A stretch of 20,172 bases of DNA from a virus, in IMG/VR virus record IMGVR_UViG_3300048780_000326, positions 1 to 20,172 of that record; one strand, written 5' to 3'. The notes under the pieces were generated by a model. The model made no database searches. It saw only the letters and a list, made by a program, of their open reading frames with translations, and was not told the origin of the DNA. Within the stretch, counting starts at the first letter, position 1. Each line of letters begins with the position of its first letter. This document shows positions 8,497 through 18,256 of this stretch, piece after piece. A program made the position numbers and the translations under genes.

Positions 8497-8991
8497 TTAC
8501 TTTTCCACAAGGCTGCGGGGTGTCTGTATCGCTGCGCAGCACGCCTTCCGGTGCTCCATTTCGAGCTTCTGCATGATGCCCTGCGCCTCTGGCATCTTCA
8601 TCAGCTCGCCGAAGGTCATAAACTCCTCGGGATGATCCTTGGCATACGCCGCATCGTCCGCTTCCGCCTTGCGAATCTCTGCTGCCTCGCGGACCAGCTT
8701 GCGCTCGATGACAGCCTGCTTCAACTTTGCGCATTCTGGGAAGGCCGTCTCGCCGTCACGCTTTGGGTAGCGCGCAATGTCATCCAGTCCGCCCTCGATG
8801 TCGACCAGGTCGAATCTCGCCAGGTCCTCAGCCAGCACCAAGTAATCGTCCATGCCCAGCTTGGCCTGGCGCCGAACGCCCAGCTTGGCCAGAAGCCGCG
8901 TAATAGCCGCTTGCTTCTCGGCTGGCGATAACGGCGATAGCCTGCTGCGCTGCATCGAGGCTGGATTCGGTTTTACCCTTGAAAGTTCCAT
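8497..8991 (-). CDS. Possible helicase-loader-type replication protein
   Basis: 164 residues, mostly helical. ATG 8991 is firmly indicated by GGAG six bases upstream. The central part has a pattern seen in phage helicase-loader-like proteins that follow the initiator (about D-Y-L-V-L-A-E-D-L-A then G-L-D-D-I-A-R and F-P-E-C-A-K-L-K-Q-A-V); the C-terminal half is charged and coiled-coil-like. The location directly after the replication initiator parallels lambda O-P. It has no ATPase motifs, so it would be a P-like rather than a DnaC-like loader. The first 164 bases overlap the initiator gene in another frame, an unusually long overlap. The functional call is tentative; the gene itself is well supported. 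Confidence 0.6.
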   Translation of the reverse strand: MELSRVKPNPASMQRSRLSPLSPAEKQAAITRLLAKLGVRRQAKLGMDDYLVLAEDLARFDLVDIEGGLDDIARYPKRDGETAFPECAKLKQAVIERKLVREAAEIRKAEADDAAYAKDHPEEFMTFGELMKMPEAQGIMQKLEMEHRKACCAAIQTPRSLVEK

Positions 8992-9985
8992 GTATATCTC
9001 CTGTTTTTCCAAATTGATTGAGGGGCCCGTCCTGGTACTTCGTGATGTTCGACAGCCACAGACGCGGCCGCTCGCCGTGCGGCGTTCCCGGACTTCGCGC
9101 CCGGTGGTTCAGGCACGCCTGAAATCTCTCCAGCGTCAGCCCCGGCGCGGACTGCAGCAGCAGCGACAGTGCCCTAGCCTCCGAGCCATCCCACGCCAGC
9201 ACGACGTCCTTGAACTTCGCATAGGTGACGATCGCCAGGCGGAAGGGCGTATGCCGTGGATCTGCCGGAGCTGTTGCGTTTGCTTTTGCCCTGATCGGCG
9301 CTTTTGCTTTTCGCTTTGCTTTGGCAGGTGCGACGGTCTCGCCGGGAAACGCAAGAAGGTTCCATGGTGGTTCAATGATGGTTCCTCCTATATGGGGGTG
9401 TGGGGGTTCGGTCTCACAGACCGCAATTTCGGTCTCACAGACCGCAATTTCGGTCTCACAGACCGTTTCTACTACGACGGCATCGGCAAATGGTTCCACG
9501 GATGCGGTCTCACAGACCACTTTTACTGCGGCGGCATCGGCAAAAAGTTCCACGGATGCGGCCTCTACTTCTTCTGCGTCCAAGATCAACGGCTGGCGCT
9601 GGGCTAGACGGAAGCGGGCCGCGAACGGCTGCTTCAGGTCTGTCCCTAGAACCCTCAGGTTGATCTGGAAGGCGTATTTGTAAAACTTCCCCTCGACCCG
9701 CTGACGCGCGACAAGGTTTATCTCTTCGAATATCTGCAACATGCGGCGGACGGTCCGCAAATTCAATTCGGAACTCCCCGCCACACGCTCCACCGACGGC
9801 CAGCCATAGCCCGCAGCGTCGGCCGCATCCGCGAGCACAACCAGGACAGCCTTCGCGGTCGGATTACCCAGCCGCGTTCGGTATGCCGAATTGGTTACCT
9901 CGTTGCTCACGCACGCCCACCCTTCGCCGTCGTATCCCCGGCCGCTCTTGCTGCTCGATTGACGTGCTGCACCGTTGCCCACCAT
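8828..9985 (-). CDS. Replication initiator protein with winged helix-turn-helix domain
   Basis: DNA-binding initiator analogous to lambda O, up to 385 residues. Residues 41-100 match the common phage pattern: P-T-A-K-A-V-L-V-V-L-A-D-A-A-D-A-A-G-Y-G-W-P-S, then the recognition-helix region L-N-L-R-T-V-R-R-M-L. Residues 141-193 are a repetitive V-C-E-T linker encoded by four DNA dyads, probably the origin. The linker and an Ala/Lys-rich stretch (about 219-240) lead to a C-terminal domain (245-335) of unknown fold. ATG 9985 has no good ribosome-binding site. GTG at 9910 (residue 26) has a GAAGGG upstream and would start with S-N-E-V-T-N, closer to relatives. The 3' end overlaps the next gene by 164 bases. 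Confidence 0.8.
   Translation of the reverse strand: MVGNGAARQSSSKSGRGYDGEGWACVSNEVTNSAYRTRLGNPTAKAVLVVLADAADAAGYGWPSVERVAGSSELNLRTVRRMLQIFEEINLVARQRVEGKFYKYAFQINLRVLGTDLKQPFAARFRLAQRQPLILDAEEVEAASVELFADAAAVKVVCETASVEPFADAVVVETVCETEIAVCETEIAVCETEPPHPHIGGTIIEPPWNLLAFPGETVAPAKAKRKAKAPIRAKANATAPADPRHTPFRLAIVTYAKFKDVVLAWDGSEARALSLLLQSAPGLTLERFQACLNHRARSPGTPHGERPRLWLSNITKYQDGPLNQFGKTGDIHGTFKGKTESSLDAAQQAIAVIASREASGYYAASGQAGRSAPGQAGHGRLLGAG
9409..9570. repeat. Iteron-like dyad array inside the initiator gene (candidate replication origin)
   Basis: The 15-bp dyad CGGTCTCACAGACCG (six-base arms, three-base centre) occurs at 9409-9423, 9430-9444 and 9451-9465, with a fourth copy at 9505-9519 differing only in its last base. 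The first three are spaced 21 bp. The last part is a 54-bp direct repeat (units from 9451 and 9505, with a decayed third from 9559). A poly-purine/pyrimidine, AT-richer segment lies on the far side at about 9280-9330. Lambda's origin likewise has four dyad iterons within gene O beside an AT-rich stretch, so an origin is the best reading. Confidence 0.65.
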
Positions 9986-12234: not shown

Positions 12235-12503
12235 CGCGATCCCTTCTTCGCTGCTCTTGCGAGCTTGCGGTCGGCCAATTCGCGGGCCAGTTGGCGTTCC
12301 CGTTCGAGGCGTTCATGCAACTCCGGCATGCGGTCCTCAAGCAGGCGCTGGGACTCACGCGGAGCGCACAGCGGATCGGCGGCGATAGCCAGGTCATCGA
12401 CCCGCACGATGACCACCAGCAGCGCACCGCTCTTCTTTAGCAGCCACGCCGCCGCAGCCTGCAGCGCACCGTTGCTCGTCAGCTCCCAATCACGCTTTGC
12501 CAT
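12231..12503 (-). CDS. Small protein with hydrophobic strand and charged helix
   Basis: 90 residues, no family recognised. Residues 18-36 (A-A-W-L-L-K-K-S-G-A-L-L-V-V-I-V-R-V-D) look like a helix followed by a buried strand; the remainder is a long Glu/Arg/Leu helix suited to a coiled coil, ending in a basic tail (A-A-K-K-G-S-R). ATG 12503 is the likely start: the reading frame continues upstream to 12620, but that part lies in antiparallel-free overlap with the DUF5131 gene and looks like out-of-frame noise (Arg/Cys/Ser rich). The true overlap with that gene is 14 bases. Confidence 0.65.
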   Translation of the reverse strand: MAKRDWELTSNGALQAAAAWLLKKSGALLVVIVRVDDLAIAADPLCAPRESQRLLEDRMPELHERLERERQLARELADRKLARAAKKGSR

Positions 12504-13584
12504 GCGCAACCTCCGGAAACTGGTGCCACTGCACGCCATCGAGCAGATCGCCCGCAGACTTCTTGCCGAGGCGCGCCATCCACACGTCGTTGTCTCTAGC
12601 CGATCCGAGAATCTGCCCATCCTTTCCGTCGCGCGTTAGTCTGACGTGAGGCTTATTGTCCGGATCGTCCCATCGGTGATCCCGCCACTCGCCCCATTGC
12701 TTGAAGAAGAAGGGCACGCCAGCGGCGACACACTGATCGCGCAGGCTGCAAGCCCAGGCCGGATGCATCGGGCGAGCTCCAGGGCCGCTCTCGCCGCCGC
12801 AGATCACCCAGTCAAGACGCGTCGCAATCTCTGCTCCGGGGTCCACACCTGCATTACTCAAAGCGTTCAGATACCTCCCAATCCCACTAACGCTCAGAAG
12901 TTCTTCCAGACTTACATGCCGCAGCAGGGGTTCAGCGGAGATGAACCGCACTGCTGCCGGCGTCTTCAGCAGCAGCGGGATACGCTCATCCGCAGCCTTC
13001 TGGTTCTCGACCGAGACACCCAACCACACGTTTAGCAGCGGCCAGTTACTACTTACTCGACAGCCGCATTCATCACGATCCGCGCCGAGATCATAGACAA
13101 CCTCAGCATTCTTCGGAAACATGGAGCGCGGATATTTCACGTGTGCTTCAATCTCAAACGCCAGGTCACCAGCAGCCAGCATCACATCGCTGCGTCTACC
13201 CGGCTCGCCCAGATATGCCAGCATCCGCTCCGGCCGCTTCGTGAGGATCTGAAACGTGTGCCGCGCGCACAGCGCCATCACCGCGAAGATACGGTCGCGC
13301 ATTTCATCCGTCACGTTCTCATGAAAGAGGTCGCTCATCGAGTTGACGAAGATGCGGCGCGGCGTCTTCCAGCGCAGCGGATCGAGCAGGTGCTCTTCCA
13401 CGAACTCGATCCTTCCATTCCACCTGCCCAACGCCGTCAGGCCTGCATACGCCAACCCCGGCCCGCTGAAGCGATGCGCTACGCTCTCGGCGTAGCAGTT
13501 GCGGCATCCCTCACTCACCCGCGAGCATCCCCGAATCGGATTCCACGTCGCATCCGTCCACTCGATTGATGTCGCACCGCTCAT
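12490..13584 (-). CDS. DUF5131 / phage Gp37-Gp68 family protein (radical-SAM-like)
   Basis: 364 residues. The N-terminus has the family hallmark I-E-W-T-D-A-T-W-N-P-I-R-G-C (C20) followed by C27 and C30, a C-x6-C-x2-C cluster that could hold an iron-sulphur centre, as in radical SAM-related proteins. Further family segments are F-V-N-S-M-S-D-L-F-H, the helical T-F-Q-I-L-T-K-R-P-E-R, N-V-W-L-G-V-S-V-E-N, R-F-I-S-A-E-P-L-L and the C-terminal W-V-I-C-G-G-E-S-G-P-G-A-R-P-M then F-F-F-K-Q-W-G-E-W. All are present, so the protein looks intact. The biochemical role of the family is not established to my knowledge. The start is ATGA-coupled to the ParB gene, suggesting joint expression. Confidence 0.92.
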   Translation of the reverse strand: MSGATSIEWTDATWNPIRGCSRVSEGCRNCYAESVAHRFSGPGLAYAGLTALGRWNGRIEFVEEHLLDPLRWKTPRRIFVNSMSDLFHENVTDEMRDRIFAVMALCARHTFQILTKRPERMLAYLGEPGRRSDVMLAAGDLAFEIEAHVKYPRSMFPKNAEVVYDLGADRDECGCRVSSNWPLLNVWLGVSVENQKAADERIPLLLKTPAAVRFISAEPLLRHVSLEELLSVSGIGRYLNALSNAGVDPGAEIATRLDWVICGGESGPGARPMHPAWACSLRDQCVAAGVPFFFKQWGEWRDHRWDDPDNKPHVRLTRDGKDGQILGSARDNDVWMARLGKKSAGDLLDGVQWHQFPEVAHGKA

Positions 13585-15452
13585 GCCGTCACCCCTTTGG
13601 ACTTCTTTCCCGCTGGCAGTACAGCCTTCTTCGCCGGAACCTTTTTCGCAGCAGGTTTAGCGACTTTCTTGACCGGCTTTGCGGCGTCCGGAGCGGTCCA
13701 TTTGAAACCGAGCTCCTTCGCGACGGCGTCCATCGCCCGGCGCTCAGCCTCTTTCCGTTCGCGGCGGTCGACCTTCAGCAGGTCCGCGTGCTCTAGCGCG
13801 GCGGCCAGACGAATCAACTCATCCACCATGGCCGTGCCGATATATTTCTCGATCGCATCCATTGCGACATCATCCTGCGCGGACAAGTGAGTGCCCTTCG
13901 CGGTTGGTACCGGAATCCCCATTGACACCGCCAGGCTTACACCGTCAATACCCCACCCGCGCTCGAGTGCATCCTCGAGGAGCTTGCGCAGAACCGCTTC
14001 ACGCTTCTCCATCGCCTTCGCCAGCAGCAGCTTCATGAACGCGACACGCACCGGCCGCTCGCTCTCCACGTACGCCTTCGCAGCAGCCTCACGCGCTTCA
14101 CGCTCCGCCGTCGTCTCCGATGGCTTCGGCTTATCCTCGCTGCGCGCCTGCTTCTCCTCCCAGCCCTTCGAGTGCACCTTGCAGCCCACCGCGATGCACA
14201 CCCGGACAGTCTCACCGGCCATCCGCAGCTTCTCCCTGCCGCCCATGTAGCCGCGATCGCCCGCATCGCTCCAATCCACCGTCACACCCGAACGCACATT
14301 CGCGCAGCTGCCCATCTTGGCATCGATCCACTGGCCGTACTTCAGCACCTTCGCCGGGTTGGCCGTCTCGGCAGCTGACTTGATAGAGCACGCCGCAATC
14401 CCATCATTGGGCACAATGCTCGGCTTCACGCTGGATATCTTCCAGCTCAGCCGCGGTACCAGAACCTTCGGCTTGGCCAGCTCATCGTGCCCAGCCTTGC
14501 GCATCTCGATCTGCACGAAGCCTTCCGTCTTGGCTGCGAAGCATGCGCCGTCGGTGCAGGTCGCGTCGCCCATCTCCATATCGCCGAAGAGCGGCGTATT
14601 AGCCTTGGTATTCTTCGGGCACTCCGCGCAGGGCCCAACGTCGGGCAGCAGGTAGTCTTCGTCCGTCAGCGACCAGGGCGCGCGGCTCAACAGGATGCCC
14701 GACTCAGCCTCAATCCACGCCTTCAGCCGAACGACGCTCTGCGGTTCAAAGGTGTAGGAATAACGCGACGAATTCCCCGCAGCCTTATCCGCGCGCGCCT
14801 GCACAACGCTCGCGATCCGCTGCTGCAGCACCGTCTCCACGGTCGTCTTCGAGCCCGCGCTATGGTCCAGCGTCCACTTCAGTGCGGCATTCTGCTCGGC
14901 CTCCGCCAGGCGCGCCAGCAGCAGCGCATGGTCGATGGTGATCAACTCAGCCCGCATCGCATCGCGCGAGTGCAGCGTCAGCGCACACAGGCGCAGGATC
15001 TTCGCGACATAGCTCTGCTCCTTGCCCATCCGCGCCGCGACTGCCGGAATCGAGCCAAGCACCTGGAGCAGCCGCTCGAAGGCCTCAGCTTCCTCCACGG
15101 GGTGAATGTCGACGCGCTGCAGGTTGGCGACGATCGCGGTCTCGGCCGCCTCGGCATCGGTCATGCCGCGAGCCAGCAGGCACGGCAGCAGCTCGAGGCC
15201 AAGCTCCCGCGCTGCCAGCAGGCGGCGATGCCCGGAGACGACCTCGTAAACGTCAACGCCGTGGCCACCGTCGCAGTCCTCAAGGAACACTGGCCGCACC
15301 AGCAGCGGCTCCTGGAGGCCGGACTGCGCGATCGAGGCCTTGAGCTCGTCAAGCCTAGACCGGTCGAAGGTCTGGCGTGGGTTGGTGCTCGAGGCGCGAA
15401 GGTCAGCGACGTTCAGCTCCAACAGGATTCGTTCCGAATTGCGGTCTGTCAT
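13581..15452 (-). CDS. ParB/RepB/Spo0J-like protein with zinc-knuckle middle and Lys-rich tail
   Basis: 623 residues. The N-terminal ParB domain has R-x-x-x-x-N-P-R-Q-T-F-D (19-30), the nucleotide-binding G-H-R-R at 74-77 and A-N-L-Q-R at 109-113, then an HTH region at about 134-155 (I-P-A-V-A-A-R-M-G-K-E-Q-S-Y-V-A-K). A middle C4 motif follows: C275/C278 with C299/C304, in the setting C-A-E-C-P-K-N-T and C-T-D-G-A-C-F-A-A-K seen in large plasmid and phage ParB-like proteins. The tail (590-623) is Lys/Ala/Pro-rich. AGGAG lies upstream of ATG 15452. No ParA is visible nearby, so a regulatory, nuclease or DNA-organising role is as likely as partition. Confidence 0.9.
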   Translation of the reverse strand: MTDRNSERILLELNVADLRASSTNPRQTFDRSRLDELKASIAQSGLQEPLLVRPVFLEDCDGGHGVDVYEVVSGHRRLLAARELGLELLPCLLARGMTDAEAAETAIVANLQRVDIHPVEEAEAFERLLQVLGSIPAVAARMGKEQSYVAKILRLCALTLHSRDAMRAELITIDHALLLARLAEAEQNAALKWTLDHSAGSKTTVETVLQQRIASVVQARADKAAGNSSRYSYTFEPQSVVRLKAWIEAESGILLSRAPWSLTDEDYLLPDVGPCAECPKNTKANTPLFGDMEMGDATCTDGACFAAKTEGFVQIEMRKAGHDELAKPKVLVPRLSWKISSVKPSIVPNDGIAACSIKSAAETANPAKVLKYGQWIDAKMGSCANVRSGVTVDWSDAGDRGYMGGREKLRMAGETVRVCIAVGCKVHSKGWEEKQARSEDKPKPSETTAEREAREAAAKAYVESERPVRVAFMKLLLAKAMEKREAVLRKLLEDALERGWGIDGVSLAVSMGIPVPTAKGTHLSAQDDVAMDAIEKYIGTAMVDELIRLAAALEHADLLKVDRRERKEAERRAMDAVAKELGFKWTAPDAAKPVKKVAKPAAKKVPAKKAVLPAGKKSKGVTA

Positions 15453-15940: not shown

Positions 15941-16192
15941 CTACGTGGAAAGCTCAATGTGTGTGGTTCGGCCGTTCCTACGGCGGAAGAAGTTCAGCTG
16001 CAGCGGCCGAGACCGGACCTGTACAACGGCAGCCCCGTCGCGATGCATACCCGCGCCCTGGATCAATGCGGCACGCTTCATCGCCTTCAACGTTGCGGCC
16101 ACTGCTACGCGCGACCAGCCGAGAGCCTGCGCCACTTCGACGCTGGTCATGCCTGCAGGATGTGCGCGTAGCAGGCTCAAAATCTTTTCCAT
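15941..16192 (-). CDS. Small winged-helix DNA-binding protein
   Basis: 83 residues. Residues 1-48 read as a winged helix: M-E-K-I-L-S-L-L-R-A-H-P-A-G-M-T, then S-V-E-V-A-Q-A-L-G-W-S-R-V-A-V-A-A-T-L-K-A-M, the helix-turn-helix with a Ser-Arg recognition helix, followed by wing strands to about 62. The C-terminus is basic (F-F-R-R-R-N-G-R). ATG 16192 overlaps the previous stop as TGATG, with a G-rich ribosome-binding site just upstream. It is probably a local transcription regulator of the phage. Confidence 0.75.
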   Translation of the reverse strand: MEKILSLLRAHPAGMTSVEVAQALGWSRVAVAATLKAMKRAALIQGAGMHRDGAAVVQVRSRPLQLNFFRRRNGRTTHIELST

Positions 16193-16893
16193 CACCCCCG
16201 AACCTCTTCAACGGTCAGGTCAATGGCTTTGCCGAAGACCTCGATTGCGGCGTCCCAGACCTTGCGCGGATCGACTAGAGGAAGGTCGAGGGCGAGGTCG
16301 AGGGCGAGGTCGAGGGCGAGGTCGAGGTCGAGGGCGAGGTCGAGGTCGCGGGCGAGGGCGAGGTCGAGGTCGCGGGCGAGGGCGAGGTCGAGGTCGAGGG
16401 CGAGGTCGAGGTCGAGGGCGAGGGCGAGGTCGCGGGCGCGGGCGAGGGCGAGGTCGAGGGCGAGGGCGAGGTCGAGGGCGCGGGCGTATTTTATTTTCGG
16501 CAGTTCTTCGAACTGCCGAGCGTGCCCACGGAATCTCTCAGCCAACTCACTATCAGCCCCAGCAACCCGATCCGCCAGGTTGCGCAGCCCGATCGGGATC
16601 AATACGTTCAGCGTCGCGTTCAGCAGATACTCATAGCGCGCTTGTTCGAGAACCGGATTGCGCGTGCCCACGAGCTTCGGGATAAAGGGCACTAGCTTCT
16701 GCCGATGCTCATCGTCAAACCAGTAATTCAAGCCAATGCCGAAGCGCGTCAGCGCTGGGCAAGCACACTGCGGATAATTGCTATGCGGTTCATTGTTGAA
16801 CCACGCCACGGCTTCCATGATGCTGAGGCCGTCTACGCCGCGGCGATGGTATCCACCGCTCAACTTCAACGTTTCCAGATCCAGTACCTTCAT
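16192..16893 (-). CDS. Phage protein with conserved N-terminal domain and (D/A)-L repeat region
   Basis: 233 residues. The first 115 residues resemble a conserved domain found in phage and actinobacterial proteins: L-K-L-S-G-G-Y-H, then G-L-S-I-M-E-A-V-A-W-F-N-N-E-P-H-S, C-A-C-P-A-L, then L-V-P-F-I-P-K-L-V-G-T-R. Members often end in long Ala-rich repeats. Here residues about 138-205 are instead L-A-L-D-L-D type, encoded by 34 hexamers (see repeat). Function is unknown to me. AGGAGG lies before ATG 16893. The unique C-terminus after the repeat (D-P-R-K-V-W-D-A-A-I-E-V-F) returns to normal sequence and in frame, so the repeat expands by whole codons and the gene stays open. Confidence 0.82.
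   Translation of the reverse strand: MKVLDLETLKLSGGYHRRGVDGLSIMEAVAWFNNEPHSNYPQCACPALTRFGIGLNYWFDDEHRQKLVPFIPKLVGTRNPVLEQARYEYLLNATLNVLIPIGLRNLADRVAGADSELAERFRGHARQFEELPKIKYARALDLALALDLALARARDLALALDLDLALDLDLALARDLDLALARDLDLALDLDLALDLALDLALDLPLVDPRKVWDAAIEVFGKAIDLTVEEVRG
16284..16487. repeat. Coding hexamer repeat, 34 units
   Basis: Read on the plus strand, the array is 34 consecutive six-base units of consensus GG(T/G)CG(A/C), 204 bases in all, with two degenerate positions (third and sixth base). On the coding strand it gives alternating Leu or Arg with Asp or Ala. Because units are six bases, gain or loss by slippage changes length by two residues without frameshift. No other tandem repeat this long occurs in the window. 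Confidence 0.95.
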
Positions 16894-18155: not shown

Positions 18156-18256
18156 CGCTTCCTCTCTCTCTTGAAAACTCTTGCTTCTACTCCCGCCGGT
18201 GCTGGGCGCACGGCCAGAGTTCTTTATTCGCTCGCCGTCCGCGCAGGACCGCAGGA

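Follow-up and report, generated by a model that had tools for sequence, protein, structure and literature searches.

The placement of a replication origin within the coding sequence of its own initiator is a layout known from bacteriophage lambda and its relatives (PMC7466680, PMC5043065). In lambda, dimers of the O protein bind near-perfect inverted repeats, O and P contact the opened strand, and transcription through the origin matters (PMC5043065). The lambda iterons are annotated at 39034, 39054, 39078 and 39101. The oriL origin of phage SPP1 lies inside gene 38 and combines initiator-bound repeats with an AT-rich unwinding element (PMC6316719), and an origin within the repA gene of mycobacteriophages is suspected (PMC7157519). 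Repeats are also described for the unwinding regions themselves, as the 13-mers of oriC and in plasmid RK2, and as the DnaA-trio, which is strand-specific (PMC10797057).

The window studied here, that is the whole stretch of DNA that was analyzed, comprises 20,172 nucleotides (positions 1 to 20,172 of IMG/VR record IMGVR_UViG_3300048780_000326). On comparative sequence evidence we consider it very probable that positions 9354-9519 are the replication origin of this soil phage, located within the coding sequence of its own initiator, which would bind the dyads found there. A lambda-style origin in the initiator gene had been proposed in the initial annotation, and this reading is supported by a close relative, by a survey of the initiator family, and by the joint change of recognition helix and iterons; to it the present analysis adds family-wide evidence for a signal at the DNA level, a natural swap of helix and iterons, and a second element beside the array. 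As a lambda-like origin with a new iteron, the locus would add an example to an arrangement that is already known.

Over its first 16.3 kb the window is 100% identical to a 35.6-kb contig of a Granulicella MAG, the initiator gene included, and therefore the phage probably infects an acidobacterium. The MAG contig ends within a low-complexity run of the window (16282-16478), a long 6-bp repeat (GAGGTC/GAGGGC) that encodes an LDLALALDL-type stretch in the open reading frame at 16192-16893. Two further features of the window were noticed in passing: 49 bp at 18198-18246 are 98% identical to a site close to the opposite end of the phage contig (G001:C152:1376-1424), and a ParB-like protein (ParB_N and HTH_ParB, 623 aa) is encoded beside a DUF5131 protein (13581-15452 and 12490-13584, respectively).

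The initiator gene and its dyad array

The features of the locus are as follows:

8497-8991, minus strand: next gene (open reading frame), overlapping the 3' end of the initiator gene out of frame
8828-9985, minus strand: replication initiator gene (PF13730 HTH_36, 7e-7; phrog_1032, 1e-13)
9354-9384, minus strand: GAACC element, a putative unwinding element, three copies at 11-bp spacing (GAACCATCA TT GAACCACCA TG GAACCTTCT)
9409-9423, plus strand: dyad iteron closest to the GAACC element, exact CGGTCTCACAGACCG, a 6-3-6 dyad
9430-9444, plus strand: dyad iteron, exact CGGTCTCACAGACCG
9451-9465, plus strand: dyad iteron, exact CGGTCTCACAGACCG
9505-9519, plus strand: dyad iteron with one mismatch, CGGTCTCACAGACCA; the alignment with the close relative L035 shows the same change
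9451-9504 and 9505-9558, plus strand: two head-to-tail 54-bp units, 87% identical, each with a dyad
9656-9907, minus strand: N-terminal winged helix-turn-helix (residues 27-110, AlphaFold2), likely reader of the iterons

Counted from its first ATG the initiator has 385 residues, with the conserved part beginning at about residue 26. Its N-terminal part matches PF13730 above the cut-off, and in PHROGs the best assignment is to the replication initiation protein phrog_1032, with weaker matches to several O-like families. AlphaFold2 predicts with confidence a winged helix at about residues 28-108 (pLDDT mostly 93-98 over residues 31-110), in which helices are followed by a two-strand wing; pLDDT falls below 50 across most of residues 153-251, a region that includes the part encoded by the array. 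The best Foldseek matches to the model are winged-helix regulators, MarR-like and others, none of them at E <= 1e-3. As modeled, the protein consists of a DNA-binding head, a disordered linker whose coding sequence carries the array, and a C-terminal part. The product of the next gene has no match in Pfam, PHROGs or NCBIfam; its position, where a helicase-loader gene would be expected, makes it a candidate for that role.

The four dyads reported in the initial annotation are all present inside the initiator gene: three exact copies of CGGTCTCACAGACCG follow each other in 21-bp steps, and the fourth, CGGTCTCACAGACCA, lies 54 bp further on. The mixed 21/54-bp spacing, which had been singled out as unfamiliar, is real, and partly reflects past duplication, as the step of 54 bp stems from the doubling of a unit of that length that contains a dyad. 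A search of the 20 kb with up to 3 mismatches found no further copies of CGGTCTCACAGACCG, other than reverse-strand readings of the same four sites; at 3 mismatches there are 7 matches, against a mean of 1.04 and a maximum of 5 in dinucleotide shuffles. Clusters with at least 3 copies of a 12-mer occur twice in the window, as the dyad array and as the low-complexity run at 16282-16478. The cumulative GC skew does not turn at 9.4 kb, a result that is uninformative with all genes on one strand.

In the minus-strand gene the dyad repeat is read as the peptide V-C-E-T. All copies in the window share one reading frame (p = 0.035 in synonymous shuffles), and for this reason the repeat in the DNA and the repeat in the peptide are inseparable within this gene, so that the decision falls to comparative evidence.

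The sole close relative found in IMG/VR, L035, has an initiator with 79% amino acid identity. It retains all four dyads without a single difference, the altered first base of the fourth included, and it also carries the GAACC element; in both tandem spacers GAAATT (EI) has become GGAAAA (GK). Dyad DNA that is kept while the spacer residues vary is what the initial annotation had expected of an origin; the reverse pattern, V-C-E-T kept with the dyads lost through synonymous changes, was looked for in this relative, which displays the opposite. The divergence of L035 is modest, and taken alone it would not be decisive for an origin. When IMG/VR was scanned for the exact 15-mer, a single copy was found in 28 of 29 contigs and the array solely in that of L035; by estimate, the number of single-copy contigs is roughly that expected by chance in a collection of such size. 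In nine viral contigs that resemble each other (L006, L007, L009, L010, L016, L018, L019, L020 and L024) the 15-mer occurs once, in non-coding sequence, immediately after an A-rich run and CCCAG...CTGGG, apparently an unrelated shared element or a coincidence. A tblastn search of named phages with the window's initiator gave no match, and more distant relatives were then taken as queries.

Iteron arrays and recognition helices across the family

Relatives were gathered by the helix-turn-helix domain alone, with their linkers ignored, and were reduced to 92 genes of less than 70% identity, the window's included; lambda O was added for a total of 93 tested genes, and a 12-mer with at most 1 mismatch was counted as a copy. 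At least 3 copies of a repeat are present in 72 of the 93 genes. The excess over shuffled sequences has p <= 0.05 in 65 of the 93 with synonymous-codon shuffles and in 71 with codon-order shuffles, the mean best copy number being 3.35 as compared with 1.80 and 1.61, respectively. Clustered linker arrays number 61, and start at a median of 13 codons past the helix-turn-helix domain. In about a third of the surveyed relatives a clustered array was not detected; the counts of genes with repeats or arrays are lower bounds, because the strict repeat scan misses even the iterons of lambda itself. A search of plasmids for relatives yielded four, all weak.

The sequence of the iteron is lineage-specific (for example, AAAGGGTGACA, ACCACCGGACA, CCCCGCAGCAG and GATCGCCCGATT), and its spacing is mostly 21-24 bp, with peaks at 22, 21, 23 and 24 bp. 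Spacings that are not divisible by three account for 106 of 177, and in 48 of the 61 arrays the copies are spread over two or all three reading frames, such that one DNA repeat gives rise to different peptides (as IKGDN and ERVTS, for example). Since the arrays run through several frames, it is the DNA that is selected and not the peptide. The same conclusion is suggested by sequence conservation: in ten non-redundant close pairs the iteron DNA is 97% identical (512/528), as compared with 87% between iterons (458/524) and about 81% in the C-terminal part. These pairs leave out the group in which helix and iterons are swapped (L159/L169 and L154/L155/L158, described below); over all 23 close pairs the corresponding values are 93, 85 and 83%. 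The earlier suggestion that the repeat DNA is conserved beyond the needs of a linker is thus borne out both by L035 and by the frame and shuffle tests across the family. An automated dyad score calculated on the consensus iterons is significant in 8 of 61; we do not claim that all iterons of the family are dyads, as many resemble direct repeats whose second half is imperfect.

A natural swap bears on the identity of the protein domain that reads these repeats. The initiators of L159 and L154/L155 are 88% identical, and in the DNA of their C-terminal parts 315 of 320 positions agree. They have different recognition helices (NVSKENVCRNISRL in L159, NVHVSNVSKNISRL in L154/L155), and in step with the helix the iterons are replaced, from the TGGTGCGGAGGCGCAC type in L159 to the CCCGCGCCAGCGCGG type in L154/L155. 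L169 has the pairing of helix and iterons found in L159, and L158 that found in L154/L155. More generally, across the 61 arrays the more alike two recognition helices are, the more alike the iterons tend to be, after control for the rest of the domain (partial rho = 0.26, a value reached by none of 300 permutations). This joint change supports the helix-turn-helix domain as the reader of the iterons.

The GAACC element beside the iterons

The repeated element at 9354-9384 was absent from the initial annotation. It is the sole GAACC triplet at 10-12 bp spacing in the window, and none of 200 shuffles gives one. The surrounding DNA (9345-9385) has 51% AT, against 40% for the whole initiator gene, and in stability the 40 bp from position 9355 rank below about 98.7% of the window, with another 40-bp stretch of the same gene, at about 8979, being weaker still.

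Most relatives encode E-P-S directly past their arrays, often two or three times. The glutamate codon of this motif is GAA in 66 of 66 cases, at a GAA:GAG ratio of 528:561 elsewhere in the same genes, and serine is almost invariably encoded by TCA. Furthermore, GAACCRTCA is found in all three frames, with N-H-Q, N-R-Q, T-I-I and T-V-I as the other readings; it follows from the fixed codons and the use of all frames that the conserved unit is a DNA string and not a peptide. The copies recognized by a site model of the element number 131 in the 4.9 kb after the arrays, as against 43 in the remaining 46 kb, with 5 on the complementary strand. In 71 of 79 cases the interval between copies is 10, 11 or 12 bp, that is, one helical turn, with multiples of three unfavored. 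Exact AACCRTCA within 75 bp past the array is present in 39 of 61 genes, as compared with 7.8 (at most 14) in synonymous shuffles, and pairs of AACC at 10-12 bp in 68 of 92 genes, as compared with 24 (at most 30) in shuffles. The AT excess in the family profile is highest at the GAACC stretch (+0.13).

The association is also recovered in the reverse direction. When IMG/VR was scanned with the DNA pattern as the sole criterion (GAACCRTCA twice plus one more GAACC, with gaps of 1-4), 59 of the 80 loci among the matches listed fell in an open reading frame with the initiator helix-turn-helix domain, and 55 of these 59 had at least 3 repeat copies within 220 bp upstream; about nine of the remaining loci are of the same kind, truncated at a contig end, and the others are mostly low-complexity sequence. 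In two loci, L241 and L260, the iteron, which lies some 20-190 bp upstream of the matched pattern, itself seems to include GAACCRTCA (TGAACCATCAGA and AACCGTCAGATT), so that iteron and GAACC element appear to be merged.

Among twenty named phages, most of those in which the helix-turn-helix was recognized have linker repeats. GAACCRTCA or close forms are found in phages of Pseudomonas, Sphingopyxis, Stenotrophomonas and Microcystis; four copies of GAACCGTCC, spaced by 11, 11 and 13 bp, are present in Arthrobacter phage Cupello; and GAACC is repeated every 12-17 bp, followed by other tails, in Vibrio phage H20, Salmonella S107, a Klebsiella phage and Bifidobacterium Bbif-1. The element is absent from Shigella phage SfII, Yersinia YeP1, Vibrio lentus phage 1.016, Ruminococcus phiRgIBDN1 and lambda, and is thus widespread and not universal. 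It accompanies at least 21 of 27 clusters of C-terminal parts, which have no detectable relation to each other at E 1e-3, and it is constant across the swap of helix and iterons between L159/L169 and L154/L155/L158. Both observations make it likelier that the element is read by a host factor that is itself conserved, or that it directly affects the opening of the DNA, than that its reader lies in the initiator's variable parts. In the open-access literature a search with the GAACCRTCA string gave unrelated records among the matches listed, and searches by topic led to the layouts of lambda and SPP1 and to no description of the element, which is not proof of novelty.

We put at about an even chance the general proposition that tailed phages widely use GAACCRTCA, recurring on the coding strand at intervals of one helical turn, as a signal for opening the origin; its reader may be a replication factor conserved among hosts. 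The element stands beside lineage-specific iterons in initiator genes of phages of Acidobacteriota, Pseudomonas, Sphingopyxis, Stenotrophomonas, Arthrobacter and Microcystis, and, as shorter GAACC repeats, in phages of Vibrio, Salmonella, Klebsiella and Bifidobacterium. The alternative that survives best is that GAACC works at the level of RNA, for example as evenly spaced contact sites for Rho or for antitermination, and not in DNA opening. The strong bias to the coding strand (131 to 5) is compatible with such a role, as are the G-poor, C-containing composition of the element, its spacing near 11 nt, and the importance of transcription through the origin in lambda (PMC5043065); however, a nine-base core is kept, which exceeds the needs of a degenerate C-rich signal, and the element directly adjoins the iterons, coincides with the AT maximum, and follows the array in position. 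On balance we regard the RNA reading as unlikely.

Alternative readings, proposed mechanism and known origins

The dyads might instead be operators, at which the initiator gene is repressed or otherwise regulated in its transcription by its own product or by a different regulator, and not parts of an origin. Winged-helix domains are often those of repressors, and the best structural matches of the initiator are MarR-like and other regulators. Against this, the sites lie about 460 bp or more inside the coding sequence, they occupy the same relative place in many relatives, adjoining the AT-rich element, PHROGs assigns the protein to replication initiation, and the initiator genes of lambda and SPP1 hold origins (PMC7466680, PMC6316719); taken together, these observations make the operator reading highly improbable.

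It is harder still to maintain that the repeat was selected as a V-C-E-T linker peptide and that the identity of the DNA is a by-product of recent tandem duplication. This would agree with the single frame of the window's copies, the evident duplication of the 54-bp unit, and a synonymous-shuffle probability of just 0.035, but in L035 the dyad DNA is kept with changed residues in both tandem spacers, the array falls within a predicted disordered region, and the reading is largely refuted by the arrays of relatives, which cross frames and translate one DNA repeat into different peptides. Finally, almost no credence can be given to the idea that GAACC is a peptide motif (E-P-S, E-P-S) binding the helicase or its loader, as E-P-S is the commonest reading of the copies but the invariant GAA codon, the copies in three frames, and the excess over synonymous shuffles all speak for the DNA.

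An origin within the initiator gene could operate in the following manner. Dimers of the N-terminal winged helix of the initiator would bind the four dyads, which would lie on nearly one side of the double helix, given spacings of two turns (21 bp) and about five (54 bp). The resulting complex would strain the adjoining, less stable stretch with its coding-strand GAACC repeats one turn apart; this stretch would open and give entry to the helicase, which the C-terminal part of the initiator would deliver, probably together with a loader from the next gene. The DNA is free to follow the needs of binding because the sites fall in the part of the gene that encodes the disordered linker. A single coding sequence bears two signals at the DNA level, with little regard for the reading frame.

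Very few phage origins have been mapped, and, if the pattern holds, those of many uncultured phages could be read directly from sequence, by looking for a helix-turn-helix initiator, repeats in its linker, and GAACC steps alongside. The joint change of helix and iterons offers a natural data set for learning how a helix-turn-helix domain reads DNA, and the GAACC element poses the question of which phage or host protein reads a strand-specific, once-per-turn signal beside otherwise unrelated origins.

These results can be compared with the systems described at the outset. The likeness to lambda gene O invoked in the initial annotation is a fair one as to layout: in lambda, too, the iterons, which are 20, 24 and 23 bp apart inside O, stand about two helical turns from each other within the initiator gene, beside weak DNA to which the putative unwinding element of the window would correspond. 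The differences are that lambda has another iteron sequence and no GAACC repeats, and that a loader of the lambda P type is unrecognizable in the phage of the window. A profile of the window's initiator family had no match at the lambda locus, with just the weaker matches to O-like PHROGs as a link, and sequence comparison gave no sign that the protein belongs to the lambda O family. SPP1, with the layout compared from PMC6316719 alone, likewise has its repeats inside the initiator gene; it belongs with another host lineage and has a second origin, oriR. With respect to the 13-mers and the DnaA-trio, GAACCRTCA differs from both the 13-mers and a 3-base repeat, and its spacing is one helical turn, but the element resembles them in its position beside the initiator sites, and like the DnaA-trio it is strand-specific.
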